Assembly (NCBI GenBank): GCA_963995525.1
Contig: OZ023213.1
Coordinates: 37,637,071-37,701,070 of the forward strand
Source of the DNA: Escarpia spicata
Lineage: Eukaryota; Annelida; Polychaeta; Sabellida; Siboglinidae
Direction: 5' to 3'
Length of the DNA stretch: 64,000 nucleotides
Shown piece after piece: positions 3,491-43,886 of the stretch. Within the stretch, counting starts at the first letter, position 1. Every line of letters begins with the position of its first letter. The notes under the pieces were generated by a model that saw nothing but the letters and a program-made list of their open reading frames with translations, searched no databases and was not told the origin of the DNA. The translations under genes and the position numbers were made by a program.

Positions 3491-3893
3491 GAAGAAAGTC
3501 AACTAAATTCCTTTTGTTTCAGTAATTTTATGGCAAATGATCGACAGGGCTCATTGTAAATAGCATTAAAAGACACCTTTTTTTAATAAGTATCACGTAG
3601 GATGCCTATACATTGTTAGATAAGACGCTAAAAATTGCATTTCTTAAACAAAACAAAAATCACTATTGACGCTATATTTAGCCTTCGAACGGCTCTCACG
3701 CCAAATCGCAAATCCCGACTTATCACCGATTTGGTCTGCCGGGGTCACATATAAAATATATATACTACTAGTAAGTCATTATAGCTAAACTTGTAAATCA
3801 CCTTACGTACGAATTTTGCACACGTAACTAGTGACACGATGGTGCCACCTGGCGAATATACTGCTAGCTATATAGTAAGGGAGCGATTAGTAT

Positions 3894-4440: not shown

Positions 4441-5215
4441 CTATGATCACCGATACGTTTTTCCTCCGTTAAATTGATGTCTTATGAATGTGTTCTTCTC
4501 GTGAGCCACCCATTCTAGCCATTCAAGTGCCATCTTACCATAAATACGTGTCCAACAGCAATGTGTTGAATTTCGCTCTACATGCAACAGATCAGACTGA
4601 GGGCCGACGGGTCATTTGGTCGGAGTCGACAGAGAAGACATCCGGTCACACAGACAACTTAGCTCCACCTGAAGCATATGCATGTAATCAAGTGGAAATA
4701 CAGATATCATATTCTTTGCAAGATTACAAAATCGGGAGTTTGAAATCATGAGTACAGCTCAACATGTTCCTTGACCACGAGTCGATCGTACGACAGGTGG
4801 GCAATCTTGCCCTTCGCTCTCACATCTCTTACCTCCGGGAGCACTTGTTGGATGCCTCCATAAATGACTGGAGGCAGGCTTCGAATGAGTTCTGCTGGGT
4901 TTCCATCATCTTTTAGAAAATGTCTTCCTGTCTAGCCAGCGCGTCGTTGACAACTGCTTCACTGTCTAAGTCCTCGAGATGCGATGCCGATCGCGTTGTC
5001 TTCCCCATTGTTCGAGTGTCAAGGCAAGAGTTGCACCTCTCCGCCGTGACAGTGTTCAACAGCTATGTGCGACAGATCAGACTGGGAGCCGACAGGCCAT
5101 CTGGTTGGAGTCAACAGAAAAGACACCTGGTCACACAGACAACTTAGCTCCGACTGAACCATATGCATGTAATCAAGTGGATATTTCTGTTGTCATACTG
5201 CATTCCATATTGTAA
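4236..5215. repeat. imperfect direct duplication of an ORF1 fragment and its flank
   Basis: Two diverged copies lie in the same orientation, about 4236-4725 and 4853-5205. Matching landmarks are GACTGGAGGCAGGCTT (4261 and 4868), the AAAATGTCTTCCTG box, and CACACAGACAACTTAGCTCC followed by GCATGTAATCAAGTGGA. The second copy has a stop (TTTTAG) in the antisense frame that the first lacks. Identity is roughly 85% by eye. Confidence 0.75.
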
Positions 5216-5520
5216 ATGTTCACGTAAATCTTAAATGGTATCATGAAGAAATTCCAAGCTGCTTGGCTTACTGTCACAAGAAGTCAGCGCAAATGGAAAA
5301 ACTATCGCTGGTTTCAAATGAATTGCACACAGAATAGACCACGCTGATTTTTAAATGCTTTTAAAAATCGGTAGGCCATCAATATTAAGAGAAATTCAGT
5401 GGTGTTGATATCGCTCGCTACATCTGTTGGGTTTCTGCAAAGGCATGTTGTTATCCACTAGTTACGTTGTAATATGTGTGGACGTGCTAATTAAGAGATG
5501 GTGTGCATATTAAATTATTT
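5216..5520. other. intergenic, no gene seen
   Basis: AT-rich sequence between the duplicated ORF1 fragment and the first piggyBac copy. I see no coding signal or clear repeat. Confidence 0.5.
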
Positions 5521-6430
5521 CAGGATGACATACTCATTGATCATTAATGAAAAGTTGAAAAAGAGGTGATCGAGTAGTGGAAATAAAAACATTCAAAATC
5601 TATTTATAGCTTGGGCTGCAAACAAAGAAGTGAAACAGTCAACAAAATAATATACACTGTTAGACATCTAGAATCTAATTCAAATATAAACATAAACAAG
5701 GATGCTAGCATCTCGTACAGGCTATTGTGTCGAAGTAACGAACAAAGTAATTATAACGGACGAACAAATAATTAAATGTCCTATCAGGTGAAGCACAATA
5801 CTGGGCCATAAAAGGGGGACTGGTCACCAAAAACAAGTGTAAAAAACAAAAAGTGCTTAAAATAAATGAAAAACTGTCTTAGATGGTAGCCAAGATAGAT
5901 CTACACCTAAAATTAAAGAAGAAGATAAGATCTCTACTCACTGTTAGGTGGTTCAATGCCAAGGGAAGTTCATGATGTAAGTTACATGGTGTCTTAACTA
6001 AAATATGAGAATGTGAAACCCTTCAGAAATCAAACAAATATGCTTGACTGATGTATGCTAGTACCTCATCAGAATCCAACCAAAAGACTACTAAAATGTT
6101 AAGAATGATCAGAGCACTCTGGACCTGGAACGGTGGACACTGTAACTTACATTATCTACCTCGTCAACAACCACAATTTTGTTCAAACAATAAACAGGCA
6201 GGATGTGTTTTTTGTGTCTTCTTTCTTCATGGGCCTAAGATACAGCACCAATGTTATCAACAGGAACTGTCCACAAAGAAACTGGTTATGGAGTAAATAT
6301 AGCGTGTAGAATCCCGTTTGCTTGATCTTGTCTGCTCCCCATCCAAGCTTGAACAGGTCATCCGGGTTTACAAGCTTCACTTTCTTCTCATAGCTGTTCA
6401 TTATCACCACACAGTGAATGTGGCCGAAAC
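5521..6430 (-). mobile_element. piggyBac-family fragment, copy 1 (3' part)
   Basis: Nearly identical over long stretches to 11249-12300, and over its left part to 9510-9868. The minus frame near 6430-6345 reads GHIHCVVIMNSYEKK followed by LVNP. This is the counterpart of GRIHCVAVLSGHEKKG in the larger copy, so the right part is the end of a piggyBac-type transposase reading frame. The rest is its 3' noncoding sequence. The N-terminal and catalytic parts are missing. Confidence 0.65.
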
Positions 6431-6668
6431 GCGTGAATGCATATTTCACCGACTCGTCATTCTTTACTTGCGAATATCTCTGCCGCTGGATACGTTAGTG
6501 TTTTTCGCTAAAGGTGCCGTCACACGATGCAAGTAAGTCGCTGCAACCATTGCATGTTACTTACAATTTTAAAACGGCGAAATAGCGTTCAAATGTTCCA
6601 TGTTGTATTATTAATCATATATAGTTTACCAACTTGATTATTCAGAGCTCTTGCTTAATTATAATTGT
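6431..6668. other. spacer between piggyBac copy 1 and the Harbinger gene
   Basis: AT-rich, with no coding match. It may hold the missing 5' end of the Harbinger transposase, but I could not recognise it. Confidence 0.4.
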
Positions 6669-8237
6669 GACAGCTATCAATCATTGGAGTATCTTTATCG
6701 CGTGGCAAGAAACACACTCAGCGAGATGATACCAGAAACATGTGAAGCCATATATGCTGTTCTTCGCCAGGAGTTTCTCAAGGTAAATGAGGATACAAAG
6801 AATGAAAAGTGAAAGGTTGCTCCTGCGACAAAGATAATTAATCTTTGCTGAGAAAATTATAATACAGCTGTGCAAAACAGCTATAGCAGGTTTTGTCTGG
6901 TTGTAGATGAACACTTGTAATACAACAGGGACTACTGATTGGATTTTAACAGTACTGTAAGATAACTTTACATCTTTATTAGTTGGAGAACCACTGTCAA
7001 AACTTGAATGGTCCAGTGGATGATTGAATTAAATACTAACATAATTAAATACTAACATTCATGAACTGACACACTACACACGAGAAGAAAGAACCCATAA
7101 ATGTCAGAACAATTAACCTTATTTGCATAACCATATTCAACTTTGCTATCCTGAGATACTTCCTTACCTCTACCTCTAACTAATCCCAATCCCTCTCATT
7201 CCCTCTCAACCCACCCTCACACAAAGCATCCTCCTCCTCCAGGACTTCATACAGCATCTTGAGCATGTCAAGCTCTACCTTTCTTCTGAGATAAGTTGTT
7301 TTTATCTGCACTAAGTAACTGGCCATTAAGCGGGCAAAAGAAGCTGCACCAGCATCATTATCTGTATCTATCTTGGCCTTCTTATGAGTGACATAGTCCT
7401 TTATGGCGCCTAATGCTTCACAGGCAGATTCGCTGACTTGGTCGCTCTTCTTCTTTTTGTTTGCACTGGTTGGAGTATCTCTGGTAGATGTTGAAGGAGT
7501 AGGTGCTACCTCTTGGTTTATGTCGTCTTCTATGTCCTCGTTGTCTGCCTGTTGACCTGGGCTGTCAGGAGTATGTTCTGCCATCTCCGCGTCAGATTGA
7601 GCATCAGGTGTTAGTGACTCCTCGAACAAAACGTCATTGTCTGGATCATCCTGAAATTATACCATCGAAATGATAACAATAGTTAAATGCCAGATTAATT
7701 AAAAAATACACATTGCAGGCCTCAAGTAAAAAGGTATTATTCTGAGATAATTATTTGTTGTGTTTTATAATAAGATGTAATGCGATTAAGTACCCGGGGG
7801 GTATTTCCTTTTCTCTCAACAGGTACCATCAACACATGAAGAATGGGAAGCCATCGCTCAAGAATTCATGAACAAATGGAACTTCCCGAATCTCAAATTT
7901 TTAGTATAGTTCTGATGGCTGTTGTCGATGCCAATTACAGATTTCTGCTGCTGGATGTTAGTGCTAATGGCCGAGCGAGTGACGCGGGCGTCTATGCTGC
8001 ATCATCTCTATCACATGCTTTGGAAATGAATACGTTAAATATTCCACCAGCCAAATCACTGCCAGGGAGACAGAAAGAAGTGCCATACGTTGTGGTGGGT
8101 GATGAAGCTTTTGGCCTGAAAGAGCACTTCATGAGGCCTTTTCCACACAGGAACTTGAATGAGACACAGAAGATCTTTAATTATCGCCTGTCCAGAGCAA
8201 GGAGAGTCGTAGAAAATGCCTTTGGCATCCTTGAGTG
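6669..8237 (+). pseudogene. PIF/Harbinger transposase (HARBI1-like), internally deleted
   Basis: A two-exon plus-strand gene. Exon 6669-6782 reads DSYQSLEYLYRVARNTLSE, then PETCEAIYAVLRQEFLK, and stops at a GTAAAT donor. The next exon starts after CTCTCAACAG at 7823 and reads VPSTHEEWEAIAQEFMNKW. This continues the protein exactly as HARBI1-like nucleases do. At 7892-7899 the sequence jumps, out of frame, to FSIVLMAVVDANYRF. About 25 codons are gone, including the segment that in this family carries the first catalytic Asp (DGKH). The second Asp (GRASDAGVY) and the Glu (RRVVENAFG) remain. A TGA at 8235 cuts off the usual C-terminal tail. Such an enzyme should be inactive. The start of the gene is not visible. 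Confidence 0.85.
7180..7650 (-). CDS. Harbinger accessory protein (MADF/Myb-BESS type), last exon
   Basis: The minus-strand exon begins after TAATTTCAG at 7650 and is open to a stop at 7180. It has an acidic Ser/Thr-rich part, a basic KKKK patch, then ALGAIKDYVTHKKAKID and SFARLMASYLVQI, with an amphipathic acidic end (MLKMLYEVLEEEDA). Harbinger elements carry a second gene for a DNA-binding partner of the transposase, and this looks like the C-terminal half of such a protein. The N-terminal MADF/Myb part was not found. It lies antisense inside the transposase intron 6783-7822, so the two genes are nested. Confidence 0.6.
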   Translation of the reverse strand, partial: DDPDNDVLFEESLTPDAQSDAEMAEHTPDSPGQQADNEDIEDDINQEVAPTPSTSTRDTPTSANKKKKSDQVSESACEALGAIKDYVTHKKAKIDTDNDAGAASFARLMASYLVQIKTTYLRRKVELDMLKMLYEVLEEEDALCEGGLRGNERDWD

Positions 8238-25900: not shown

Positions 25901-28900
25901 TGAATAAAATGGCAGACATCCACAGTTTTGACACAAAGTTAGAACAAACTACACCATAAGTTTCCATGTATAATACACTTCTGTGTATAATACGCACCCC
26001 AAGATTTGCTAAATTCTGACAGAATTCGTATATTATCATGTAGATTATGCATCCCAACTTTTGGCATCAACCCCTCATTTCCATTGCTAGAAGGGCGACT
26101 CAGGGTTGGCCACTGTCATTTCATCAATCTTCGTTCGTGTGATGACCCTTGAATCCATACCAGAATCGTAAAATGTCCCTTACGCAAGTTACAGCATTGC
26201 CACCGGCACATCACATGCGACGATGTCACCTCGTGAGTCGAATCTAAGCAGTCATTCTTCCACCTGGTGGATACTTGTATGCCTATGAATTACCCCATGT
26301 GGATGTTTGTAGAACTACTCGGAAGCCAAAGCGGACAGTCATAGGTTGTTTCTGCCGTGATGTACGCGCCAAACTGCATTACCGCAAAACTGTCTTTTAT
26401 GAAATGCGCGTCTAAGACACTTATTGTTGTATAAAATGAGTGGTGATGTTTTCTATGCTTTGCCTATAAAGCTACATGTCACAGAGCATGTATTTCTGGC
26501 TTATATCCAGTCAGAGAACATTTTATTTAGCACTAGCACCATGTATAATATGCATCCGGAATATTTAGTAAAAAATGAAGGAGAAAATGCATATTATACA
26601 CGGAAATGTATGGTAAATAAACAAGGGATCATCTCAGAATGTCGATGTCTGATTCTCGGACGAAAGTGTGTAAACATTGATATGATGATGTCAATATATT
26701 AACAGTATCGGTCAGAAACGTAAAATATCAGTGTCCAACACCAGACGAAACTGCCTCTGACCCCCTCCCCAGACATAAGTAATTTTGTCTGACATCGGAC
26801 ATTGATGTTCTTAAATGATCCCTAAGCATAAGCCCATAAATAGCCACTCCTGGTACCTATACCAACCATTTGTTTAAATCCTTTCTCAAAGTACCTGGAA
26901 GAAAAAAAAACTTAATGCCACTGAAAAATATATAGGACAGTAGGACATACGAAATACGTAGGACACAACATTTTCTTGTAGTCAGTACTATTATTTTGTA
27001 TACCTAACCTTTGTCTGACAGTTCATTGGGTAAGTTCTACTGATTTGATGTTTGCTATGACTTTAGTCCCTGGTTGGTGTAGCTGGGGGAGCCACCAGAG
27101 CCTCGCTGACGCAACACCAGACTCGCAGGAATAACATGGCTGACGTATCAGCAAAAGACGGAAGCCAGGTGAGGCTACTAGGTGGCAGCACTGTATTACA
27201 AACACAAAAATAATATAACATTTATTTTACCTTTATAATTAGATCATAGTTTTATTCTTGCTCAACTTTTTTCATTTATTTTATTGATAATTTTAAAAAT
27301 TAAATGTGTTTGCACTGAGTAATTGTGTATACTTAATTAGCTTACAGTCAGATTAATTGTATACGATTTATTGTTTGCACAGTTTGTGTGTGTTTTATTT
27401 CCAATGTATGTTACTGGATGCTGTTTTGCAGGAGACGTTGGTGAATTTGGCAGCTCTACTGTGCAACTTGGCGCTGATTCCCATGGTTACAGGCAAACCT
27501 GTGTAAGTGTTCCTTACTGTGTGCACAGATGCAGTGATAATTTGTATGTAATCATTGACTTTTTAGTACTCATACTTAATAGACAATATACACAAAACAT
27601 ACGGCATCTGGTGACGCAAAGTTGAAGTGTACACAGACATGCTATCATATGAGAACGCTGCACTTCAGTGGCAGAGCATGTGGTGAAACTACTAGTACTG
27701 GCACCAAACATATCACATATGACTAGACATTGACAGAATCTATCATAATTTGTCTACTTTGGCATGTTCTGGCCTTGCACTATTGCGTTTCCACGATTTC
27801 TACAAATAGTCACCACAATGTTATATGATATTCACATATATGACATCTAGTGACTAATAGTAGAACTACGGTTGTTGGACGATTTCCATGCATCACGAAT
27901 ATTGTAATGTAATACATTACCATGGTAATCATAATTACAATCATGATTACCATTTTCTTGAACGTATTTATGTTTCCCTAGTCTTGACTAAAGACAACCA
28001 GTCAGATGTGGGTCAATTACAGCTGAAATTATAAATTCAAAGAGAAGCTATGAACATAAATTAGTTTGTAATATAAAACATGACAGCAAGAGTTTTTATG
28101 CGTATGTTCGAAGCAAACAGAAAGTTCAGGATAAGGTCGGTCCTCTAGAAGATAGTGCTGGAAATATAATAACAGAAGGATTCTTAATGGCAGAAGACCT
28201 GAATGAGTATTTTAGTTCAGTGTTTACCAGAGAAGACACTAGTTCACTGCCAGTACCAGAGGCTAAGTTCAAGGGGGCAGAATCAGACTATTTAAGACAG
28301 TTAATTGTAACCCCAGAAATGGTAGCTAAGAAAATTAGGGCTATGAAGGATAATAAATCACCTGGAGTGGATGGTATTCCACCCAAACTACTATTGGAAA
28401 TTGTAGAACAAATTAGCATACCGCTTGCAACAGCTTTCAACTTGTCATTAGAAGAGGGAGTGGTTCCTTTAGAATGGAAAGAAGCAAACATTATACCGTT
28501 ATTTAAAAAAGGTTTGAGAAACAAGTCAAATAATTATAGACCAGTTAGTTTAACATCAGTGATTTGTAAATTATTAGAAAGACTAATTAAAGATCACATG
28601 GTGGATTTTCTTGTTAAACATAACTTGATAAACCCATCTCAACATGGGTTTCTAAAAGCGAGATCATGCTTAACAAATATGTTATGTTTTTTGGAAGATA
28701 TCACTAAGTGGGTAGATGATGGATCACCAGTAGATATCATCTACTTAGATTTTCAAAAAGCTTTTGACAAAGTGCCACATCAAAGATTACTGCTTAAACG
28801 AAAGGCCCATGGCTTAGGAAATGGTTTAATTAACTGGATAGAAAAATGGCTGATTGACAGAAGACAACGGGTAGTTGTTGATGGGGAGGCTTCAAACTGG

Positions 28901-30672
28901 AAATCAGTTTTGAGTGGGGTTCCACAGGGATCAGTACTGGGACCTATATTATTCTTAATATATATAAACGATTTGGACGATGATATAGCTAGCAAGGTGT
29001 TGAAATTTGCAGATGATACAAAAGTGTTTAGAAGGATTAAAAGTGATGGAGATAGACAGCATTTACAAGATGGTCTTGACAGGTTGATCAAATGGTCTGA
29101 AAAGTGGCAAATGTTGTTCAATTTTGGGAAATGTAAATGCCTTCACACAGGACATGGGAATGAATATGTAGAATATACAATGGGGGGAACTGTAGTAAGT
29201 ACTACTGTAAAAGAAAACCACTTAGGGCTGACAATTAGTGCTGACATGCAGGTTTCAGAGCAGTGTGGAATTGCAGCTTCAAAAGGAAATCAAATCCTTG
29301 GATTGATTAGGCGAAATATAGCATATAAAGAAAAGGAACTAATAATACCACTGTACAAAACAATAGTTAGGCCTCATTTAGAATATTGTATACAAGCGTG
29401 GAGGCCATACCGCAAGAAGGACATAGATATGCTAGAAAGAGTACAGAGGAGAGCGACTAAAATGATACAAAATCTGAGGGATCTTAGTTATGAAAGGCGC
29501 CTAAAAGAATGTGGTTTAACAACACTAGAGACCAGGAGATTGAGAGGAGATCAGATAGAAGTGTTTAAAATATTGAATGGTTATGAAAATATTGATAGAA
29601 ATATGTTTTTTTCAGTTAAGAAAGATAGAAAGGCTAGAGGACATGAAGTTACATTAGTAAAGGAGCAGTGTAGATTAGACGTAAGAAAGTTCTCATTTTC
29701 ACAAAGGACTGTGAACGAATGGAACAGATTATCTGATGATTGTGTGGGTGCTAGTAGTGTGAGAAGGGCTGGATATATGTAGATAAAAGGGTTGGACTCT
29801 CGATAAGCCAAAGGGCTTCCTTGTCCACCTGCCATCTAGAGTTAATTCTCTGGATGGCAATCTTGTTAAATCTTGTTAAATTACATTAAAATTCAGTTTT
29901 TATTGCATCAGGTTGAGCTGTTATGATATCATGTATCTTGTAACAGACAGGAAGTTGTAAACAGTGTACACAATAGCTACACTGTAATGTAATCATGGTT
30001 ATAAACCAAAGTACATGCAAAAGTTATTGTAATTGATTGCACTAATTTTCTAAGAAACCATATGCATACATTTTTACAGTAATTGCCCCATTTCTGCTAG
30101 CATGTATACTCTGGAGTCATATGTGGTATGGTTGTCTTTCTCACAACTTTATGTTCCTAAAACTATGTTGTCTCTGTACCAAGCCGAAAATGTAGTCACC
30201 ACACTTCAGCAAAAAACTGAACACATATTTATTTGAAATTGTAAAATCTTTGTTTGCAGAGTGATATGGACCCTGTTCTGCATCTTCACCATTCTACATC
30301 TGTATGCAAACTACAGAGCTGTGTCGGCTGTTACCATGGAAACCTTCAACCCAACACGTCTACATATCGTTCTGCAGCGGTACCTGTCATCTGGGTTTGA
30401 ACTTTTGACCTCTGTGAGGTCAGCCAATCGACTAGAGCCGATTTTATTGAGTGCGTGAACTGCCTTGTATTCCATGTAATATACCAGTAATTGAAAATGT
30501 TTTGAGTTTCTAACACATGTATACTTTAATTTTGCTCACTGCTGGGATCCTATGTAAGCATACATTGTTAGTGTAATGAATTTCAATCAGTTATGCATTT
30601 TAACTTAAGATGTAACAAAATGAAGAATGTATAGAATTAAACTCACACACACCACAAATGCACGCACGCACG

Positions 30673-30703
<31 letters not shown>

Positions 30704-33700
30704 ACACACACACACCCACACACCACACACACCACACACACCACACACACCACCACACACACCACACACACCACACACCACACCACACACACCACACACA
30801 CCACACACACCACCACCACACACACCACCACACACACCACACACCACACCACACACACCACACACACCACACACACCACACACACCACACACACCACACA
30901 CACCACCACACACACCACACACAACACACACTCACATGCACACACACACACACACACACACACCCAACACACCACACACTCACACAATCACACACGCACA
31001 CACAAAAGTATATCTTAAAATAAAACTCTAATTCCATAGACTTGTGATTTTAAAGCATCACATTTGAACATTTATATTGGGTAATTTAATTGTTACTAGT
31101 CCTGTCCGTTTTCTTTCTACAAATCCTAAAGAAATTTATTTGATTTCCTTGTTTCTAATGTATGTACTGCATAATACAAACTACTCTTTTATGTAATTAT
31201 CTATTTTTAACAGTAATATGCTTACCTGCATATTTATGATTTAAACTGCGAATTCTTCAGAAGGTAACAAATTGTGACCCATCTTAACAAAATGAGTCGG
31301 ATGTCGGCAAATCTGATTTTCTGTGAATGCCGTTTATGTGAACAAATCGCGAATCCATCGATTTTGATATTTCCCTGAAAATTATTCTTTGGTATTCGTT
31401 TTATCAATTGCTACTCTAGCTACCCACTAATTAACTCTGTTTTGTGTATTTTAAAGCGATTTTTGTAGACCTGTGTGAAGTGTTCCGCTCGATTTCCTTA
31501 AAATAATGCCGAAAAATGCCAGTAATTGCGCGTGTTTGCAACTGCTAATTTTGGGATGCTCCTAACATGGGATATCACCACGAAGCTTGATGCATCATCT
31601 TCCCATATATGGGCATACATATGCTAATAACTGCATTCTGTGACCTCCAGAGAGCTTAGAAGACGGTAACTAAGGTACATTTCATGAAACATAACGAATA
31701 ATTTGCATCAACTTTGACGGCCGTTTTCTGGGTTTGAAGGTTTCTACCCCACATGTGTTTGTTAAGCCATAACTTCAGTTAGAATTAAGGTATCTTCTTA
31801 GATGATACACCATGTGAAAGCAGAGATTCTGCTCTTTCCAATGCTACTAATAACTCAATATTACAAATTTCTGACATGCGACTCATTTTGTTAAGATGGG
31901 TCACAATTAGATATCTATTGTCACATTTATTATGAATCAATAATGTTTATTTTAACAAAAACACACCAGAATCATAGCCATTTGCTAGTTGGTTAACAGT
32001 GTTCTTGAAGTTGTCTTTCACTGTGTCATGCCAGGAACAAGAAGACAGTTCACTGTGAATCTTGGCACTTCTGTCAGTGATGTCGCAAGGAACTTTGGTC
32101 AGCTGAAGACACTGGTGACATTGTACAAAGACTGCAATTATCTGCTTTCGGTGGACCTTCGCAAAGGTGAGAGGTCATTGCATATGTTCGCAAATTCGCC
32201 AAAGCATACAGTGGAACCTCACTATTTAGGTCATCAAATTTTGAACCTCACTATTAAGGTCATCAAATTTTTGTTTTGTATACTTTATCATTGTGGACAT
32301 AATTTGGGACGGTTGACCTTAATTGCAAGGTGGCTGTATGGCCTAGTTGACTATAATGTGAGGTTCGCCTGTATTTGGTTGTCACCACATCTCCCAGGGG
32401 AAGTAAATTGCTACACTGCTGCCACCTATTGAGTGGAACTTATATTAATGCACATATTATGGTTATCAGAACCATGTAGTGTGGTGGGTTATGGTGACTA
32501 TGTCATATCAGTTGAATACAATAGATAATGAATGTGGTTTTGAAAGCTGTTCTTATCGATCAAAATCTGAAATCCCACAACATATTGATGTGGGTGGGTG
32601 GTCATTTGGACCCATACGAATATGAAATACACCTCATATGAAGACCACACATGTAGTCTCTGACATTGGCTGGGTATTCCAATACCCAGCCAATGTCAGT
32701 CAGATATTCTAGTTTCGAGGCAGCATTCAAGAAGACATCTCATCCAAACATTTTGTTCTGGAACGAATATTGTTGTCAGAGCAACTAACATTTTTAGGAT
32801 TATCTTTAGCATTGTATGTGCTTATTCTTGACATAGTTCATTTCAGTTTAATTTGTAACAGTTTATGTGATTAATAATTCAATTTACACAGAGTTAGGTT
32901 TTATTTTTAATTACGTATAAGTTTATTTTAAATTTATTTTTTTAGCACAGTTGGGGTGTTTTTACTTTTTATGTATATATTTTATATAAATAACTCGGAA
33001 CTAGCAAGGAAATAAAAATTGATTGTTACCATAATGACTACCGGTATATGAATTCAGACACCTAAAAGTAATTTAATTTTTAACTTCCCGAAAACATACA
33101 TGTGGTACTAATGTTGTGTTCACAGCCCCCATCAGTATCGCCAAAAATAGATAAGCAAGCGAAAAATGAAGAACTCGGGACATGTCCAAAATCACTCAAT
33201 TCAGTGGTCGCTAGCAAACTTACGCTTCATCCGATCCCAAAAATCTTGGTACCGTTTGAAAGATTACCTTTTCACCTACGTAGTAAATAGCACGGTTGAT
33301 CATGTTAAAGTATATTTTCACGATTATGTTGATCTGAAATATGGTTGTTTTCATCCGCTTGAACTCGGCGAACGATGTTAGCGTCGGGTATTCTTCGCCG
33401 TCTGTCGGCGAAACTGCACATTTCCTGTCAATCACCACTGCGTTACTATGGCATCGCACATGGCCGATCTGAGCAGTTGATGTTTACATGTTAAGCTCCG
33501 CCCATTTTTGCATGTCAAAGAAGATTAAGTTTCACCAAATGTTGGCATTACATTAATTAGCGATCGCCGGATGCTGCCAGACAGTTTGTTTTTTACTTGT
33601 GTTTACGTCGTTTGGAAAATGGGTGGAGATTTTTGGGATCGGATGAACCGTAAGTTTGTTTGCGACCGCTGAATTGAGTGATTTTGAACAAGTCCCGAGT

Positions 33701-36700
33701 TGTTCATTTTTCGCTCGCTCAGATCTGCCTACCATTCTGGATTGTCCGGAATCATTCCGGAAAGTCACCTCAAATTACGGTGAGGGATGAAAATATTACG
33801 GACTGTGACCATGTTGGGCAATCACTGAAATTTAGGTTCCACTATATTCAACAGGTGGCAGCATATGTATGCAGCATGTTGTGACATGGTTTTTCATTCG
33901 CTGAGTCTGGTCGTAATGTAACCAATAGGAAACAGCGTTATGACAAATTCGCATTTCCGCGATCAAACAAAACGAAGTAACGCGTCACGAAACGATGGCT
34001 GACAGCGAAACGACGCCACTGCCAACCCAAAAGAAATGTGTAATGCAAAAATGTAGTGAGTGTTGTACTTGTAGTGTTAGGCCAACTGACTGTACTAAGA
34101 CAAAGTTAGTGTATTTATTGAGGAGTTTAGTGTATCATTTACAGCCTATCATACAGTCACTAGAGTCTAGGCGATGTCAATGACAATGTAATGGTTTTGG
34201 TCCATCGCTACCCCCCCCCCCCCCCCCCCCCCCCCGTCTATAATTTATCATACTAGAGTTGAGTAGGCTAGAGTGTAGGTGATGTTGATGACAGAGTAAC
34301 TAATGGGTTTGACCTGTCGCTCCCCCCCCCCCCCCCCCCCAGTGACAATATCTGAGACATGGTGGTTCTGCATTACTGACAAGAAGCGTATATTCCTGAA
34401 AATCAGTGTAAATGGGAAGATGGATTACTGACAGGAAGTTTTTGGGGTAGGCAAGTCTGCTCGCTTATCTATTTTTGGTATCGCCCTACACGAATACATG
34501 CATGTGGTACTAATGTTGTGTTCACAGCCTCCATCTGTATCGCCCTACATGAATACATGCATGTGGTACTAATGTTGTGTTCACAGCCACCATCAGTATT
34601 GCCCTACATGAAGACAGCGATGTGCGGGATGAGTTGATGTCAGTCTTCCAGGCAGAGGTCATTGAGTATGCAAGCAGGCACAAGGACCTCACTTACAGGG
34701 TGAGTAGAACCTCACCTATAGGGTTAGTAGGACCTCACCAACAGGATGTGTAGGACCTCACCAACAGGATGTGTAGGACCTCACCTACAGGGTGAGTAGA
34801 ACCTCACCTACAGGGTGAGTAGGACCTCATCTAAAGGGTGAGTAGGACCTCACCTACAGGGTGAGTAGGACCTCATCCACAGGTGAGTAGGACCTCATTC
34901 ACAGGTGAGTATGACATCATCCACAGGGTGAGTAGGACCTCACCCACAGGGTGAATAGGACCTCACCAACAGGGTGAGTAGGACCTCACCAACAGGTTGA
35001 GTAGGACCTCACCCACAGGGTGAGTAGGACCTCACCCACAGGGTGAGTAGGACCTCACCTGCAGTGTGGCTAGGACCTCACCAACAGGATGTGTAGAACC
35101 TCGCCTACATGGTGAGTAGGACCTTACCTACAAGGTGAGTAGGAACTCACCTACAGGATGACCTCATCCACAGGTGAGTAGGACCTCATCCACAGGTGAG
35201 TAGGACCTCACCCACAGGTTGAGTAGGACCTTACCAACAGGTTGAGTAGGACCTCACCCACAGGGTGAGTAGGACCTCACCTGCAGTGTGGCTAAGACCT
35301 CACCAACAGGATGTGTAGAACCTCGTAGGAACTGAGTAGGAACTCACCTACAGGATGACCTCATCCACAGGTGAGTAGGACCTCACCAACAGGATGTGTA
35401 GGACCTCACCTACAGGGTGAGTAGGACCTCACCCACAGGGTGAGTAGGACCTCACCAACAGGATGTGTAGGACCTCACCTACAGGGTGAGTAGGATCTCA
35501 CCAACAGGGTGAGTAGGACCTCACCAACAGGATGTGTAGGACCTCACCTGCAGGTGTGAATAAGACTTCACCAACACAGTGAGTAGGACCTCACCTACAA
35601 GGTGATTAGAACCTCACCTACGGGGTGAGTAGGACCTCACCAACAGGATGAGTATGATCTCACCTAATGGGTGAGTGCATACACATGTAATCAAACAAAT
35701 GTATTCCATAAAAATATGTATATATATATATATATATGAAATGTTTCGGAGCAAAATGCAATATATCCATTTTCTTCATTTTGACAAAAAAGTTACTTTT
35801 GTGCTTCATCCTCAACGTTTAAATAACAACTTGTAAATTAAGTTGATATATACTTAGAATCCAAAATAATAGAGAGTGGTGGCAAATTCTGAAATATTTG
35901 TTGCACATTTGTTATGCAAAATGTGATTTTAAATAAATTTGTTATTGCATTTTCAAAACAAACACATCATTTCATGGGAATTTATTGCATTTTTTGATCA
36001 GTTAGATAGTATCCTAGCTCAACATGTACAAATGTTTAGTCCTGATTTGGGTGAAATTTCAAAAACGTTTATCGCGTTTTGCTCTAAAACCCATCATATA
36101 TATAATATTGATTAATAAATAAATAAAATATATAATAAATTTAATATTAGTAATATTAAATAGCTATACTGTGTATTAAAATTTTAAATATATATAAATA
36201 AAATATGTGTTCATAACTTGTCCGAACGCACAGTTCCTCAGTAGAAGTAATCCAACTTTACTTATTGTGTTTTAAGGAGTCTTGAACCTAGCCAGTGTGG
36301 CTACATGTTTTGTGTTCTGGATATTCAAATAACTAATAATTACAGATTCACAATATACCAGTGGCAGTTGTAATACAATGTTTTATTGATACATCCGACT
36401 TCGTTTTTTCGGTAAGTTTTTCACTTAGTCTTAGTTATTATCAACGTTACTACTGACAACCCAGTGAGCCAATGTGTGAGATGCAGACAGTGATTTTGAG
36501 GGGTTTTAAACCTGATCAAGCTGGACCTATCTGATCATAGTGATGAACTGGAATCCACATGTTAGCTCAGCCTCTGGTGATGTATGATCGCGTTGCATCA
36601 CTGCATGCTCTTTAATGTTTTATTGATTTGATACAGCCGACTTCGTTTTTCTTTGATATTTACATCGTCATTGCCATACCGTTCTATTCGCTAGTACCAA

Positions 36701-39160
36701 CAACTCAGCCAGCGACCTGATATTAATTTTTTCGGCAAAATACTGTATTTAAAGCCGCACCCCAACTTTGACATTTCCTTCCCGATTTCAGTGACACAAT
36801 ATTGCAATTGAAGCCGCGGTTATAAATACAGAATTTTCGGTAGTTGACACCTGAAACAACCAAATGTCAACCATTAGAAGAGTTGACATAGTTCCGCTAT
36901 ACACAAGCAAGAAATCTGTATTTTATTGAATCATTCTAATGTCATCAGCATATAGTAGAACATACATTTTCTACATCATCATCACTAAGGTTGTTGTAAA
37001 TTTAACCAGCTGCCATGTCAAGTCCGTTATAATTGTGACTAACAGTGTTCAAAATGATTCAGGTAAATAGCAAATAACACAGGACACAAGTTTTCTCCTT
37101 GCCATACCTCTACACATGAGAAGAAGGCTGACACAGCCTGGCCCTGATTTATACATGATTTAGCATTTTTGTACATGTTGTATACAACTTTCAACACAAT
37201 ACCATTAATACCGCATGAAATTATCTCAGACCACAGGGAGGACCGGTCTACTAAATCAAATGCTTTCTTATAATCGATGAAGGCCCAATAAAGCCTTTTG
37301 CGTCAAGACAAATACAATTCAACAAATACCCCTATTTGAACACTGCCTGTTCTTCACCTATTACATTCGCTTTGTTTAGGTATTTGGTCAGTCTGGTGTT
37401 CTGAACAATCACTAAGGATTAATGAACACTTGTGCAGAATGTCACCCACATGGCAGGTTTAATTGATCTATTCAGCAATGAGGACACTGCTTATGCCTCA
37501 CTCTGGACACAGTCACTCACAGTGTTGTGTATTGTCTTAGTTGGTGCATTGAGCTAATCTACTTGACCATGAATCAGGGTTGGCTCTGGTTGTGTATTAC
37601 ACCCAGCTGTGGAGATAAGATTCTCTGCCTGCTATTGTTTGATGGAAACTGTGACTAATGGGTAATTGGTCACTGGCAGTAGCTTGAGTCAACAGACAGC
37701 ATTAAGCCACTAGACCCCTGTTAAACTGGACAGTTGCCTGTAGGTTTTAAACTGTGTCAAACAGTGAGTCTACCTTTTGCTCTCAGATAATCTGTCCTCT
37801 TAGTTTTACACATGAAGACATAATCTGGCATAACTTGATAAGTCTTTGTAGCAGCACATTTGTACTTCCAGTGTATCATTGCAACACAACATACATATTA
37901 CATACTGTGTGCCACATTTGAGTGTTGTGCATGTAATATTTCCATGCAATCCATTTGCATATATAATGTAAAACTTCAACAGCCGTTTTCTTCGTTTTCA
38001 CTTTTTGACCCCTACCATGTTCAATGCTCCATAACTTTGCCAATTTTTGTAGCAGTCATATTTTTTGAAACCGTGTAAAGCACCCTACCAAACCTTTACA
38101 AGGATATAAGAAAACAATGTTACAATTTTTCCGACTTATCACTCATTTGGTCAGCCGGGGTCACATATAGACGTATTAGTCCAAAGGACCTCGGGGTCAC
38201 TTGGCCCATTTTTTTTGTCAAAATATAGTTTTTGTCAGTCTGTCTGTTCAGTAATGTGTGTGTTGTGTTGATGTGTTTTGTGTGTAGGCATGAGTGTAGG
38301 CATGAGTGTATTCTAATATTTACACTCATGAGTGTAAATATTCGAAATGAAATGTTGTATTGTACTGTTATAAAATGTGATACACTAATTCATGATTTGT
38401 TTTGAGCAACAGAATATTGTGTGATTAAATTGTTGTACTTTTGCAGAGACCGATGGAAATGTCGCTTCTTCAGAAAGTCATAGACGCAGCTCGAAACAGT
38501 GAGTAATTATATTTAGTTCTTAATTTATAGCTTTCATAGACGATTGGTGATATATCTCCATGTAAAAACACAAAGAACTCCTTCAAAACATACCCTTTTC
38601 CTTCACCGACACTGAAAACTTGTGCTAATAGTAATTGTTTGTGTGGTGCAATAGTAGATTATATTTGATGTTGCGTGATGAATCTTTGGACATATTTATA
38701 ATGGTGACATTGAAAAGTTTTTCTCAACCATTTTAAAAATAATTGCTGAATTCAACTGACGTTACATGGTTGCGAAAACATTACCAGCCAGGCTCTGATA
38801 TCCACAGTCACGTCAGTGTGTATTAATATCTGTTCGACTTGATAGGTGACGCCACCATTGCTATTTCTTCGCCTGACTAAACCATCACCCACATCTACGC
38901 TATATATTTCTGTAGACTGTGAACCTAAACATCCATCCCTTAAACATGCCAAGTTCCTAAGAATTCCTGATTTTTTGTGAATTTCAGATGACGTCATCGG
39001 TATACTCGCTCTCTCCCGCCAACTAACTCTAGAAACATTCCCGCACTTTGTGAAGCTTGCCGAGAACGAGGGCTGGCTCACACAGGTGTCGCTACTGTGT
39101 GCTGACGAGTGGCGATCTCGCTGGGATGTCCGAGAACAAGAGTGGAGTTCTCTGTCATAG
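22938..39160 (+). CDS. RUSF1: RUS family member 1 (DUF647), ten exons, 5' end missing
   Basis: Exons: 22938-22983, 23741-23773, 25725-25830, 27067-27168, 27432-27502, 30260-30450, 32035-32166, 34587-34699, 38447-38498, 38988-39160. All borders are AG/GT, phases match, and the 1019 nt give 338 codons plus TAG. Order of motifs: [51 protein letters not shown] with [49 protein letters not shown], and C-terminal [10 protein letters not shown]. This is the RUS/DUF647 membrane-protein family: hydrophobic segments lie in exons 3, 5 and 6. Plant members act in UV-B sensing and vitamin B6 balance; the animal function is poorly known. The N-terminal exons were not found between 13 and 22.9 kb. Introns hold a CR1 LINE, several MITE-like elements and large tandem arrays. 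ATTAAA at 39183 is a candidate polyadenylation signal. Confidence 0.93.
23925..25355. repeat. 1.4-kb polypyrimidine array (CCCT/CCTT-rich) in RUSF1 intron
   Basis: The plus strand is almost pure C and T. The left third is simple (CCCT)n. The right part is a degenerate minisatellite around CCCCTTCCATCCGTCCCCTC. It fills the intron between the exons ending 23773 and starting 25725. The long Ser/Pro-Leu frame on plus and the Gly/Glu/Arg-rich frames on minus are products of the repeat, not genes. Confidence 0.95.
25443..25690. repeat. six ~42-bp units with a palindromic core
   Basis: Each unit is a C run of 6-10, then the self-complementary CATGTATACATG, then TAATACTAAACATACTTTGTG. Cores start near 25451, 25493, 25537, 25576, 25616 and 25658, so unit length varies mainly through the C run. 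The array ends 35 bp before the acceptor of the exon at 25725. Confidence 0.9.
25962..26613. mobile_element. MITE-like element with GTGTATAATA ends
   Basis: The left end has TTTCCATGTATAATACAC (25966) and the right end, inverted, TTTCCGTGTATAATATGC (about 26609). GTATAATACGCACCCC lies just inside the left end. About 650 bp, no transposase. The exact ends and target duplication are not settled. Confidence 0.45.
28021..29878 (+). mobile_element. CR1-like LINE copy A, 5'-truncated, open reverse transcriptase
   Basis: Lies in the RUSF1 intron 27503-30259, same strand. AATTAC is duplicated at 28015-28020 and 29879-29884, fitting a target-site duplication. An uninterrupted 531-codon frame (28187-29782) contains the [62 protein letters not shown] and the catalytic KFADDTKVF, then thumb and C-terminal sequence. 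The endonuclease and ORF1 are absent. Compared with copy C, 12 codons (NMFKNKIDTYLR) are missing in frame near the end. The 3' tail consists of AATCTTGTTA repeats. Copies B and C share the same end. Relatively young by the open frame, but it cannot move on its own without the endonuclease. Confidence 0.9.
29885..30259. other. intron remainder, no element seen
   Basis: Ordinary AT-rich intron sequence leading to the acceptor TTTGTTTGCAG of the exon at 30260. Confidence 0.5.
30648..31003. repeat. (CA)n / (CACACC)n compound microsatellite
   Basis: CA repeats are interrupted by many CCACACAC units in the RUSF1 intron after 30450. The long Thr-His and Cys-Val frames over it are artefacts. Confidence 0.95.
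31270..31908. mobile_element. 639-bp MITE with 34-bp terminal inverted repeats
   Basis: The left end TTGTGACCCATCTTAACAAA (continuing ATGAGTCGGATGTC) is repeated in inverted form at the right end with one mismatch in 34 bases. AATT flanks both ends but is palindromic, so the target duplication is ambiguous. No coding capacity. It is in the intron between RUSF1 exons 6 and 7, ending about 125 bp before the exon at 32035. Confidence 0.85.
32207..32373. mobile_element. short MITE, TACAGTGGAACCTC end, copy 1
   Basis: Starts TACAGTGGAACCTCACTATT and ends with the imperfect inverse GAGGTTCGCCTGTA. The middle, AATTTGGGAC...GACCTTAATTGC.AGGTGGCTGTAT, recurs at 42362-42550. TA borders suggest the Tc1/mariner/pogo kind. 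It begins 41 bp after the donor of the RUSF1 exon 32035-32166. Confidence 0.6.
32660..32699. repeat. perfect 19-bp inverted repeat, 2-bp spacer
   Basis: CTGACATTGGCTGGGTATT at 32660-32678 is followed by CC and its exact reverse complement at 32681-32699. It can form a hairpin or cruciform in the intron before the exon at 34587. Confidence 0.95.
33080..34600 (+). repeat. 59-bp tandem triplication of a 3' splice site
   Basis: The segment GTGGTACTAATGTTGTGTTC with ACAGCC, which forms the branch/pyrimidine region, AG and first exon bases of the exon at 34587, occurs at 33102, 34504 and 34563. Copies two and three are 59 bp apart. Copies one and two are also 59 bp apart once the inserted transposon and its 7-bp target duplication (1343 bp) are subtracted. 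Potential acceptors end at 33125, 34527 and 34586; only the last leads into the full open exon. Confidence 0.9.
33142..34477. mobile_element. 1336-bp TIR transposon with 7-bp target duplication
   Basis: The ends are CAAAAATAGATAAGC(A/G)AGC in inverted orientation (19 bp, one mismatch). GTATCGC is duplicated at 33135-33141 and 34478-34484. Inside, 33163-33265 and 33610-33716 form a second, longer inverted repeat containing TTGAGTGATTTT. Two C homopolymers (34211-34236, 34321-34340) are present. A small frame at 33995 ([15 protein letters not shown]) starts well but is short and unrecognised. No transposase domain was seen. Non-autonomous. Confidence 0.8.
34684..35675 (+). repeat. ~43-unit, 23-bp minisatellite made from a 5' splice site
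   Basis: The unit is GGACCTCACCTACAG followed by GGTGAGTA. The first unit overlaps the true exon end: exon bases GGACCTCACTTACAGG and the intron start GTGAGTA. By hand I count about 43 units, of which about 24 keep a perfect GTGAGT. Others read ATGTGT, TTGAGT or GTGGCT, or are shortened to 15-22 bp. The array runs without break into the RUSF1 intron. Confidence 0.95.
35690..36875. other. AT-rich intron with a diverged short duplication
   Basis: (TA)n at 35718-35736 and near 36097 and 36190. TTTTATTGATAC..CCGACTTCGTTTTT occurs at 36379 and again at 36617 as TTTTATTGATTTGATACAGC. No exon is seen. Confidence 0.45.
36875..37310 (-). mobile_element. LINE reverse-transcriptase relic in RUSF1 intron
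   Basis: The minus translation gives [55 protein letters not shown] and, further on, [12 protein letters not shown] in shifted frames. These are RT palm motifs A to C in order. Both ends are truncated, with stops between the motifs. It is a different LINE family from the CR1 copies. Confidence 0.8.
37311..38446. other. intron, no exon seen
   Basis: Holds a 39-bp motif shared with 3715-3753 (at 38131-38169) and two nearby GGCATGAGTGTA copies at 38288-38310. Otherwise featureless. Confidence 0.45.
38131..38169. repeat. 39-bp motif shared with 3715-3753
   Basis: CCGACTTATCACTCATTTGG, then TCAGCCGGGGTCACATATA, is the same in 36 of 39 positions at 3715-3753, same orientation. GGTCACATATA would suit a transposon end, but no partner end was located. 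Confidence 0.6.
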
Positions 39161-39384
39161 AACTCTCACACAATATGTTGTAATTAAAGGGAAGTTGTCC
39201 GTTTTATTATAATGGTAATTTTTATCATAAAAACATGTATAAACTACATCTGTCATAAGAAATTGACTGCTCAACTGTGTTTTAATGAACCATTTGTTGT
39301 TGTTAAAATGTAAGTGTTTCGGGAGGAAACAGTTTGTTTATATGGCTATGTGCTGCTTTGGAAAGAGTCGCCTCACGGCTGATT

Positions 39385-41935
39385 ACTGATGAGATGGATA
39401 TCATGTAACACATCACCAAGACCAAGTCAGGTCACAAACTGATTACTAATGAGATGGATATCATGTAACACATCACCAAGACCAAGTCAGGTCACAAACT
39501 GATTACTAATGAGATGGATATCATGTAACACATCACCAAGACCAAGTCAGGTCACAAACTGATTACTAATGAGATGGATATCATGTAACACATCACCAAA
39601 ACCAAGACAGGTCACAAACTGATTAATAATGAGATGGATATCTTGTAACACATCACCAAGACCAAGACAGGTCACAAACTGATTACTAATGAGATGGATA
39701 TCATGTAACACATCACCAAGACAGGTCACAAACTGATTACTGATGAGATGGATATCATGTAACACATCACCAAGACCAAGACAGGTCACAAACTGATTAC
39801 TAATGAGATGGATATCATGTAACACATCACCAAGACCAAGAAAGGTCACAAACTGATTACTGATGAGATGGATATAATGTAACACATCACCAAGACAGGT
39901 CACAAACTGATTACTAATGAGATGGATATCATGTAACATATCACCAAGACCAAGACAGGTCACAAACTGATTACTGATGAGATGGATATCATATAACACA
40001 TCACCAAGACCAAGACAGGTCACAAACTGATTACTAATGAGATGGATATCATGTAACACATCACCAAGACAGGTCACAAACTGATTTCTAATTAGATGGA
40101 TATCATGTAACACAAGACCAAGACAGGTCACAAACTGATTACTAATGAGATGGATATCATGTAACATATCACCAAGACCAAGACAGGTCACAAACTGATT
40201 ACTAATGAGATGGATATCATGTAACACATCACCAAGACAGGTCACAAACTGATTTCTAATTAGATGGATATCATGTAACACAAGACCAAGACAGGTCACA
40301 AACTGATTACTAATGAGATGGATATCATGTAACACATCACCAAGACCAAGACAGGTCACAAACTGATTACTAATGAGATGGATATCATGTAACACATCAC
40401 CAAGACCAAGTCAGGTCACAAACTGATTACTAATGAGATGGATATCATGTAACACATCACCAAGACAGGTCACAAACTGATTTCTAATGAGATGGATATC
40501 ATGTAACACAAGACCAAGACCAAGACAGGTCACAAACTGATTACTAATGAGATGGATATCATGTAACACATCACCAAGACCAAGACAGGTCACAAACTGA
40601 TTACTAATGAGATGGATATCATGTAACACATCACCAAGACCAAGTCAGGTCACAAACTGATTACTAATGAGATGGATATCATGTAACACATCACCAAGAC
40701 CAAGTCAGGTCACAAACTGATTACTAATGAGATGGATATCATGTAACACATCACCAAGACAGGTCACAAACTGATTTCTAATGAGATGGATATCATGTAA
40801 CACATCACCAAGACCAAGACAGGTCACAAACTGATTACTAATGAGATGGATATCATGTAACACCTCACCAAGACCAAGACAGGTCACTAACTGATTACTA
40901 GTTAGATGGATATCATGTAACACATCACCAAGACCAAGACAGGTCACAAACTGATTACTAATTAGATGGATATCATGTAACACATCACCAAGACCAAGAC
41001 AGGTCACAAACTGATTACTAATTAGATGGATATCATGTAACACATCACCAAGACCAAGACAGGTCACAAACTGATTACTAATGAGATGGATACCATGTAA
41101 CACAAGACCAAGACAGGTCACAAACTAATTACTAATGAGATGGAAATCATGTAACATATCACCAAAACAGGTCACTAACTGATTACTAAAGAGATGGATA
41201 TAATGTAACACAAGACCAAGTCATGTCACTAACTGATTACTAATGAGATGGATATCATGTAACACAAGACCAAGACAGGTCATAAACTGATTACTAATGA
41301 GATGGATATCATGTAACACATCACCAAGACCAAGACAGGTCACAAACTGATTACTAATGAGATGGATATCATGTAACACATCACCAAAACCAAGTCAGGT
41401 CATAAACTGATTACTAATGAGATGGATATCATGTAACACATCACCAAGACCAAGACCGGTCACAAACTGATTACTAATGAGATGGATACCATGTAACACA
41501 TCACCAAGACCAAGACAGGTCACAAACTAATTACTAATGAGATGGATATCATGTAACACAAGACCAAGTCAGGTCACTAACTGATTACTAATGAGATGGC
41601 TATCATGTAACACATCACCAAGACCAAGACAGGTCACAAACTGATTACTAATGAGATGGATATCATGTAACACATCACCAAGACCAAGACAGGTCACAAA
41701 CTGATTACTAATGAGATGGATATCATGTAACACATCACCAAAACCAAGTTAGGTCATAAACTGATTACTAATGAGATGGATATCATGTAACACATCACCA
41801 AGACCAAGTCAGGTCACAAACTGATTACTAATGAGATGGATATCATGTAACACATCACCAAGACCAAGTCAGGTCACAAACTGATTACTAATGAGATGAA
41901 TATCATGTAACACATCACCATGACCAGGTCAGGTC
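39385..41935. repeat. 60/54-bp minisatellite, ~44 units, downstream of RUSF1
   Basis: The unit is built from GAGATGGATATCATGTAACAC, ATCACCAAGACCAAGACAGG and TCACAAACTGATTACTAAT. The common unit is 60 bp. A variant lacks 6 bp around CACCAAGACC or ATCACC. Because lengths change by multiples of three, the minus frame stays open over long spans (39547-40395, 40411-40629, 40705-41121), giving LGLGDVLHDIHLISNQFVTC repeats of 20 or 18 residues. It begins about 225 bp after the RUSF1 stop. Confidence 0.95.
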
Positions 41936-43886
41936 AATATTTCTCAGAATTATTCACACTCTATTCAGTGATTTGAGTGACAGACAACTCAGTGACTTTT
42001 GTAAACATTAAACTGTTGAATCCAAAAGTTGTTTCTGCTTCGTTAAAACATATTTTATATATATTTGGAAGGTGAGTAATTTAGAATACGTTATAGTTCA
42101 TACTTTGTAACGCAATTTTAGATTAAAAAGTGAACAGACAACATCCCATTAAACTCTGTATTTTAGTTCTTGTAATGTGTATAAAGCCATAGAAATGCAT
42201 TAAGAAATGTGCCATTGGTCAACCAGGCTATATAGTGTTATTATAGACAATATTCACAACATGTACATTCAAACTACAATTGTAAACCGGTTTCCCGCAA
42301 GCAGATGCACTTTCACATGAAAGTAATGCACTTCAGCATGAGAGCGCAACGTAACTCTGAAATGGAATCTCACTATTAATGCAACCCTCGGGTCTGAGCA
42401 AAAGTTGCTTGAATACCGAGGTAATCTTATTAATGGAGACTAACTTCCTATACTTTACTGTTACAAAAATAATTTGGGACTGTCCCAAGGTGACCTTAAT
42501 TGCGAGGTGGCTGTATTATCGAAGTGACCATAAAGCGAGGTAATACTGTACTAGTATTGGCATTAAACATATCATCTGTGGCTACACATACTGACTCTAA
42601 TTTGTGCATTATAATGCATGTTACATTCCCAGTATAATCATGGTTATAATCACTATTAGTTTTCTTGTGCATGTTATGTTGCACGTACAGTGTCTAACTA
42701 TAAATGTACGTTATCACCACTGGTTCATTTCAAAATCTGTATAATGTGGTATATTTGATCTCGGTCCTGGTACTTTCTTGTGTTTACATGACGCACATGT
42801 CCAAATCTGGTCTTTCACAGATTTTTAAAGGAGGACGTCTGTTTCAAGTTTCTCATTTATTAATTAATATATTGTTCTATGTTGAAGGTATACTGCCTGC
42901 CAAATTGTGTTTGACAAGCCCGTAACAAAGGTCACAATTTGAAAGTACGACCACGGGAACATGTTCAAACGGTAAACAAAGCATCCAGTTACAAAACAAG
43001 CTTTGTTGGCAATGTGGCCGAGTTGAGCTGAGTTAACTGCTTTACCCTTTGATGTTCAACTTTGCCCGCCAGTTCTGGGTAGACGAACAGACTGGGTCCT
43101 TTTAAGAAACATATTTTATTAAACATTCCATTGGCAGTTGAATTTACGTAGTGTATTGGAGTGGGGAAGATGTAATTGTACCATTATGCGTTAATAATAT
43201 TTACTTGTACACATATAGTATCTACTCTTGACAGAGTAATACCTTGTACATAAATGATGACACAAGTGTTGTTGAAATAAAATGTTCTGTTCGAAAAGCA
43301 GTTCATGTCTTGATGCTTATTAATCTGGGAAGCATTCAGCCACACAGCACTTACTGTGTGAAATCTATTCGTACACAAATGTCCGCCATTTCTATAGCAA
43401 GGTACGCATTCATACAGCTGAGTGAACTGGAGCAACATAGAGTGAACAAACTTGCCCAAGGTTCGACATAACAGCACAAAATTCGAAAATGTGGGTTCTC
43501 TCAATTGAGAGTCCGATCCTATAGCTACCGTGTTGTACATGATGACGGTGTTTACTTTGAGGCTGTATGGTAGAGTCTCCTCTCACTCAATGTTTACTCG
43601 CCTCTTTCTGCATTCAGTCATTTCCTGGAACCACATTCCTCCAATCTACCAATTGTCGATGTATTAAAAAACACGGTAGTTAATTGGAGTTTGTTACTTA
43701 CGTGTACCTCATATGACTTTCTACCTGTCAGAGAAACATGGAAACAGATAAATGAATTGAGTGGTGAGGATGCCACTGGCCAGATACTAAATACTGCCTA
43801 CTTGGCATGCCGTAATTAGCGAGAGCAGAAATTAAATGGTCTGTGAAAACAAGTTTTAAGATCAAAAGTGTTAATGGAGATAACTG
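41936..43886. other. intergenic between the minisatellite and LINE debris
   Basis: Apart from a MITE at 42362-42550 I see nothing here. Small open frames lack codon or domain support. Confidence 0.5.
42362..42550. mobile_element. short MITE, copy 2 of the 32207 family
   Basis: Contains ATGGAATCTCACTATTAATG at the left, AATTTGGGAC and GACCTTAATTGCGAGGTGG in the middle, and GAGGTAATACTGTA at the right. The left terminus is decayed. Confidence 0.5.

Follow-up and report, generated by a model that had tools for sequence, protein, structure and literature searches.

Organization of the RUSF1 locus

The window analyzed here is a 64,000-nucleotide stretch of the tubeworm Escarpia spicata, on contig C10 of a 1.06 Gb assembly, and it carries exons of RUSF1 on the forward strand, one of which passes at its 3' end directly into a long minisatellite. 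PF04884 occurs at a single locus in the genome with five matches, its exons running from C10:37551378 into the window (Table 1). A 393-residue composite of the exons recovers 1396 homologues at E <= 1e-30, the top ones being P0001 (91% in the alignment), Lamellibrachia satsuma and Ridgeia piscesae, a similarity that places the animal among the vestimentiferan tubeworms or near them. The P0001 contig is probably spliced, because its 1562 bases encode 447 uninterrupted residues; these include HKDLTYR-RPMEM and hold none that derive from the array.

The exon that borders the minisatellite is 113 nt long. The exon before it finishes in phase 1 at 32166 (CGCAAAG/, the slash marking an exon boundary), the acceptor AG of the 113-nt exon lies at 34585-34586, and joining the exons that end at 32166, span 34587-34699 and start at 38447 yields an open frame with no stop. 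The match of the 113-nt exon to PF24160 is weak (E 0.007; 17.2 bits, below the cut-off of 20.7). Frame continuity on both sides, together with the spliced relative P0001, places the exon-intron junction at 34699/34700.

A minisatellite that begins at the 5' splice site

Tandem Repeats Finder (TRF) reports 34683-35676 as a repeat of period 23 with 44.0 copies, 81% matches and a score of 1153. A wrap-around alignment counts 44 units from 34683, the first of which is the RUSF1 exon-intron junction itself, with 17 exon bases (34683-34699) and 6 intron bases (34700-34705). There is no gap between the exon end and the array, and all growth lies 3' of the junction. The two methods agree with an earlier reading of the sequence alone (the sequence-only reading), which derived the array from RUSF1's own 5' splice site and had it start at the junction without a gap. 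Its unit length of 23 bp stands as well, its division into 16 + 7 bases is a rotation of the 17 + 6 register, and its estimate of about 43 copies becomes 44.

GTGAGT is kept in 24 of the 44 units, the real donor counted in. The sequence-only reading had given about 24 units of the CAG/GTGAGT or AGG/GTGAGT kind; the number holds for the hexamer, whereas these two types amount to 19 of 44 units (5 and 14, respectively), the remaining five being of the AAG, GGG, TGG, ATG and ACA types. In the unit alignment, the donors of the three units right after the real one are weakened or lost. Units 17-22 recur as units 27-31, which indicates that the array grew by segments as well.

The acceptor side of the same exon is also tandemly copied, with three acceptors that end at 33125, 34527 and 34586. 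The 59-bp repeat on this side contains TACTAAT, which resembles a branch point. A transposon-like insert (33143-34477) interrupts the outermost acceptor copy. The insert's terminal inverted repeat measures about 18-20 bp, with 19 of 20 aligned bases alike and two of them within the flanking copy. Either upstream acceptor (33125 or 34527) leads to a stop codon. Spare sites thus stand on both flanks of the exon, and the innermost pair alone was found to give an open frame.

Donor arrays at other genes

The whole genome was searched for the donor word CAGGTGAGT, with three copies required within gaps of 3-33. The search returned 451 matches; 100 listed matches fall in at least 23 distinct arrays, 21 of them on contigs C1-C4. 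We examined 22 arrays (loci L014 and L050-L069, with two at L054), setting aside one on C5. Seventeen of the 22 start at an exon-like end, the point at which an open frame runs up to a donor, so that peculiarity to RUSF1 is not supported. The sequence-only reading had named an outcome by which the overlap with the junction would be a coincidence, the same repeat at unrelated loci; among the loci examined it was not found, and the units there come from their own exon ends.

Nine of the 17 exon-end arrays are supported by Pfam or by sequences of solved structures (Table 1). Narrower gene names (MSH5, FBH1, STAT, WRN/BLM, GALT, STK32 and the like) may apply to array loci. The other eight (L052, L053, both at L054, L055, L058, L065 and L068) rest on the open frame. 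Acceptor-like sites were present in six of the seven checked among them, L058 having none; Pfam returned nothing for the seven of these exon-like peptides that were queried (a result of little weight for L065, whose query was approximate), and the structure sequences gave no convincing E-value for the three compared. L054 lies on the reverse strand at C1:32876500-32881500; here one gene has consecutive exons, two in number and in continuous frame, each of which is followed by its own donor array (units of 33 and 38 bp). The array at L064 (C3:11687000-11695400, array positions 1824-7190) follows an AGFG-like exon with 137.6 copies of a 39-bp unit and keeps the frame of that exon open over 1037 codons; if read, it could encode 13-residue repeats. 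As a separate observation, three related loci on C11 (L016, L017 and L018) have an exon-like end whose donor underwent a single duplication, with a spacing of 23 bp; such array growth may begin in this way.

A second donor word, CAGGTAAGT, gave 165 matches versus 138 for its own reversed word. Its first 100 matches extend as far as C13 and contain at least 19 distinct arrays. The chance expectation is higher for CAGGTAAGT than for CAGGTGAGT (8218 vs 5433), and in C1-C4 the two words differ by 1 array to 21; the contrast is milder under rough scaling, in which CAGGTGAGT has 23 arrays in ~312 Mb and CAGGTAAGT has 19 in ~840 Mb, or ~3 to 1. We read 17 CAGGTAAGT flanks by eye: six arrays lie clearly at a donor (L088, L093, L095, L096, L099 and L101) and one probably does (L100), two span the acceptor of a gene on the opposite strand (L094 and L097), two adjoin such an acceptor without spanning it (L087 and L092), and no exon was recognized at six (L085, L086, L089, L090, L091 and L098). 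Family searches returned nothing for L088 and L099; L100 had only unrelated matches, all weak, and those of L096 were likewise weak and of the transmembrane type. From these two 9-mers, at least 23 or 24 donor arrays are found outside RUSF1, with 7 to 138 copies where measured.

Table 1. Features of the RUSF1 region and families matched at exons beside arrays elsewhere in the genome. Positions are those of the window; other loci are given by their handles.
Feature	Location	Strand	Evidence or remark
Part of upstream RUSF1 exon	30261-30431	+	PF04884, E 5.1e-12
Third, outermost acceptor copy, its acceptor ending at 33125; interrupted by insert 3' of it	33077-33142	+	left limit approximate
Transposon-like insert between GTATCGCC copies (8-bp duplication)	33143-34477	+	ends by eye, +-2 bp
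59-bp tandem repeat, 2.5 copies, with TACTAAT...TTCACAG/CC; acceptors ending 34527 and 34586 (last authentic)	34478-34624	+	TRF, site scan
RUSF1 exon, 113 nt, entered in phase 1, leaving in phase 0	34587-34699	+	frame continuity; uninterrupted in spliced relative P0001; PF24160 weak
Minisatellite, 44 units of 23 bp, 24 GTGAGT sites	34683-35676	+	TRF and unit alignment
Authentic 5' splice site AGG/GTGAGT	34700-34705	+	modelled U1 pairing -11.7 kcal/mol
Five CAG/GTGAGT decoys	34883 (34883-34888), 34905, 35174, 35196, 35371	+	modelled U1 pairing -14.3 to -14.6, better than authentic
Two decoys	35135, 35625	+	modelled U1 pairing -12.3 and -12.0, slightly better than authentic
Internal higher-order duplication: units 17-22 (35049-35179) again as units 27-31 (35271-35376)	35049-35376	+	unit alignment, by eye
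Following RUSF1 exon, starts in phase 0	38447-38497	+	frame, relative P0001; right end approximate
CAGGTGAGT donor array, MutS_V	L014		0.0058, below cut-off; two joined exons vs MutS, E 9e-18, unbroken, residues 1-92 of 93
CAGGTGAGT donor array, UvrD-helicase	L051		8.8e-6, above Pfam cut-off
CAGGTGAGT donor array, HRDC	L057		8.3e-5, below cut-off
CAGGTGAGT donor array, SH2	L059		1.4e-6, above Pfam cut-off
CAGGTGAGT donor array, DUF2838	L062		8.6e-11, above Pfam cut-off
CAGGTGAGT donor array, ERCC5	L063		3.3e-6
CAGGTGAGT donor array, AGFG (named nucleoporin-like protein RIP in source)	L064		7.9e-13
CAGGTGAGT donor array, HCO3_cotransp	L066		3e-5, below cut-off
CAGGTGAGT donor array, DAGK_acc	L069		7.6e-6, below cut-off
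CAGGTAAGT donor array, GalP_UDP_transf	L093		3.1e-9
CAGGTAAGT acceptor array, ion-channel-like exon, Ion_trans	L094	other strand	7.3e-9
CAGGTAAGT donor array, Pkinase	L095		7.6e-6, below cut-off
CAGGTAAGT acceptor array, PI3/PI4-kinase-like exon, PI3_PI4_kinase	L097	other strand	6.3e-4, below cut-off
CAGGTAAGT donor array, Fry_C	L101		4.2e-10

Strength, frame and variation of the decoy donors

The later donors of the RUSF1 array, referred to here as decoys, were compared with the true donor by modelled U1 pairing. Among the 23 other GTRAG sites, seven pair better, 13 the same and three worse. None of the 23 gives an in-frame, stop-free extension, and all 32 alternative donor-like sites checked in RUSF1 run into a stop codon.

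The decoys vary as much as the DNA around them: in RUSF1, the mean departure from the consensus is 0.117 in the donor hexamer and 0.116 elsewhere in the unit. The comparison was extended to 17 arrays (RUSF1 and 16 others, without the second array of L054 and with L064 limited to its first 2500 bases for variation), 16 of which had been found through intact donor words, a bias towards donor conservation. Departure averages 0.059 in the hexamer versus 0.062 elsewhere, with the hexamer lower in eight of the 17, and GT alone departs by 0.058, lower in 11 of the 17. Compared with the other positions of the unit, the decoy donors of these 17 arrays show neither conservation nor purging. Together with the stops met by the RUSF1 decoys, this points to near-neutral duplications beside an intact first donor. 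Such background-rate variation does not bear out the idea, raised in the sequence-only reading, that the spare donors do something, be it wrong-donor use, U1 trapping or slowed splicing; it fits the alternative offered there, neutrality if the first donor always wins.

Across the same 17 arrays, unit 1 holds 11-39 exon bases, and the consensus hexamer is other than GTGAGT in four (L057, L063, L064 and L066). In 15 of them, no GTRAG decoy gives an in-frame, stop-free protein extension, the exceptions being L059, with three such decoys, and L064, with 77.

Comparison with lancelet mirages

Structures of this kind are already known from lancelets. According to the accessible parts of PMC3087553 and PMC3902484, minisatellite-like tandem duplications of exon-intron boundaries, called mirages, occur there in Adh3, globins (BflGb6/BflGb9), TnC and PGBD5. 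In the same portions of these sources, the Adh3 mirage has units of 10-72 bp and is somatically unstable, many mirage units keep splice signals, and the mirages of Adh3, TnC and the globins are reported without disturbance of splicing. The RUSF1 array, known here from DNA alone, fits the structural definition. Its unit spans an exon-intron boundary, and many units have splice signals; the 5' and/or 3' boundary may be copied in lancelets, and the RUSF1 exon has both a donor array and the 59-bp acceptor repeat; and the authentic section of the gene is intact beside the duplicates, as frame continuity and the spliced relative indicate. The host, in contrast, is a tubeworm, and many genes are concerned in one genome. 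Copy numbers also differ, with 44 in RUSF1 and ~138 in AGFG versus the 6 and 3 given for two BflGb6 haplotypes in the lancelet text available. New here are the tubeworm lineage, arrays as large as 138 copies and the number of genes.

A related process is intron gain by tandem duplication of AG/GT sites (Rogers 1989, and Gao and Lynch 2009, as outlined in the accessible part of PMC3087553). Both would begin alike, with a duplication that spans a splice signal, whereas the RUSF1 intron is merely longer and shows no new exon or intron boundary. A literature search with narrow terms, with most subscription papers outside its reach, brought up no account of mirages in a tubeworm or across a whole genome.

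Interpretation and alternative explanations

We interpret the RUSF1 feature as a mirage-type minisatellite that is near-neutral and leaves the first donor in use, with a probability of about 0.78. One tandem duplication would have taken in 17 bases at the exon's 3' end together with the 6 intron bases that follow, and slippage or unequal exchange would then have expanded the array to 44 units, all intronic. The exon and its first donor would remain whole, the exon being defined by the nearest acceptor-donor pair (34586 with 34700), and the further donors 3' and acceptors 5' of it would be passed over and left to drift. Both the duplication mechanism and the use of the first donor in this animal are what the structure suggests. 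A wider proposal may be added tentatively, at less than even odds: exon-intron junctions, chiefly GTGAGT donors, would be a birthplace of minisatellites, the process being linked to the sequence of the splice site or to splicing during transcription, and introns lengthening from the 5' end with splicing kept. That dozens of genes or more have grown their own 5' splice site in tandem belongs to this proposal and shares its tentative standing.

The IFI6 (6-16) minisatellite of humans reportedly provides multiple splice donor sites, an account ascribed to Turri et al. in 1995. Several observations weigh against our interpretation, and this system supplies one of them: two downstream units of the IFI6 minisatellite are used as donors, according to the accessible portion of PMC4526556, and the minisatellite is also referenced as a source of multiple splice donors in that of PMC2915984. 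Further, since seven of the 23 RUSF1 decoys are modelled as stronger than the true donor and 13 as equal, their silence is not evident from U1 pairing strength. Raw match counts show no real excess of CAGGTGAGT over its reversed word (451 vs 421). Four of the 22 CAGGTGAGT arrays (L050, L056, L061 and L067) have no recognizable exon end, and a fifth without a clear one (L060) gave a peptide that matched nothing.

Some of these points would suit a working splice regulator, in which array donors are sometimes used and yield stopped, decayed mRNA, or the intron retains U1, the output of RUSF1 being adjusted through the length of the array. The 24 GTGAGT sites, the stronger decoys, the stops met by all 32 alternative sites and the example of IFI6 are in keeping with such a role. 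In both IFI6 and RUSF1, one exon receives several donor sites from a minisatellite; they differ in that downstream units of IFI6 are used, giving three mRNAs, whereas the RUSF1 decoys all meet stops. Decoy use that leaves an open frame, as the IFI6 isoforms seem to imply, is found for none of the 23 GTRAG decoys and none of the 32 donor-like sites of RUSF1. The decoys also change at the same rate as the other unit positions, the three units that follow the real donor have weakened or lost theirs, and the family-supported arrays lie in functionally unrelated genes. We therefore regard a regulator as quite improbable. Growth driven by a hairpin, in which CTCACC pairs with GGTGAG across TACAG in the RUSF1 unit, is very improbable: this 6-bp inverted repeat has a shuffle P of about 0.02, but unit 1 of RUSF1 gives P 0.08 and only two of the 17 arrays fall below 0.05. 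Their median P of 0.46 disfavours hairpins as a general cause of the arrays. An assembly artefact is barely credible, for although tandem arrays are prone to misassembly, the units are diverged and ordered, a segment is duplicated internally, and arrays occur at many genes.

Coincidence would mean that in a genome rich in minisatellites some arrays happen to lie across exon ends, where they are tolerated, their birth unlinked to splice sites. The window alone has 32 TRF rows, the match counts of the donor word and its reverse are alike, and the reversed word, TGAGTGGAC, lies at 16 distinct loci among the matches listed from C1 to mid-C4, compared with 21 for CAGGTGAGT in C1-C4. The second donor word shows no excess in C1-C4 over a shuffled word, CATGGAGTG, with one distinct array against eight. 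Yet the shuffled word, with 290 matches, has its eight distinct loci in nearly all of C1-C4, nearly the same stretch in which CAGGTGAGT has 21 arrays, 16 at exon-like ends and five not. None of the 13 reversed-word arrays fetched, of the 16 loci listed, lies at a recognizable exon end, and nine of them appear by eye to be one transposon-like family. The reversed word is a weak control, however, because it cannot itself form the core of a donor, and GAG/GTGAGT is present in several of its arrays. If 30%, 40% or 50% of CAGGTGAGT words were real donors, 17 of 22 at exon ends would have P = 6e-6, 4e-4 or 0.008, respectively; these values depend on an assumed share of real donors, and the enrichment at junctions is thus likely, not proven. 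On balance, coincidence seems unlikely, and junctions may be true hot spots, the word controls being few and mixed.

Mirages have so far been described from a few lancelet genes, as far as the accessible parts of the sources go. If the same holds at many annelid genes, mirages would be a general route by which introns grow at their 5' ends and spare splice sites originate. Natural rows of up to 138 donors would also bear on how the spliceosome chooses the first donor despite later ones that are equal or stronger, and the arrays bear on a possible tendency of the DNA at splice sites to duplicate in tandem. Gene number and array size, taken together, hint at exon-intron junctions as a source of minisatellites in this genome.

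Additional repeats and an open reading frame

The dispersed transposon-like family noted above (L073, L075-L081 and L083, by eye) has an internal minisatellite, often with GAG/GTGAGTGGAC. Just 3' of the last RUSF1 exon, whose stop lies near 39157, a 60-bp repeat extends over 39379-41936 with 44 copies. An open reading frame of 595 residues (27992-29776) with a reverse transcriptase domain (RVT_1, 1.6e-33) is located within a RUSF1 intron.
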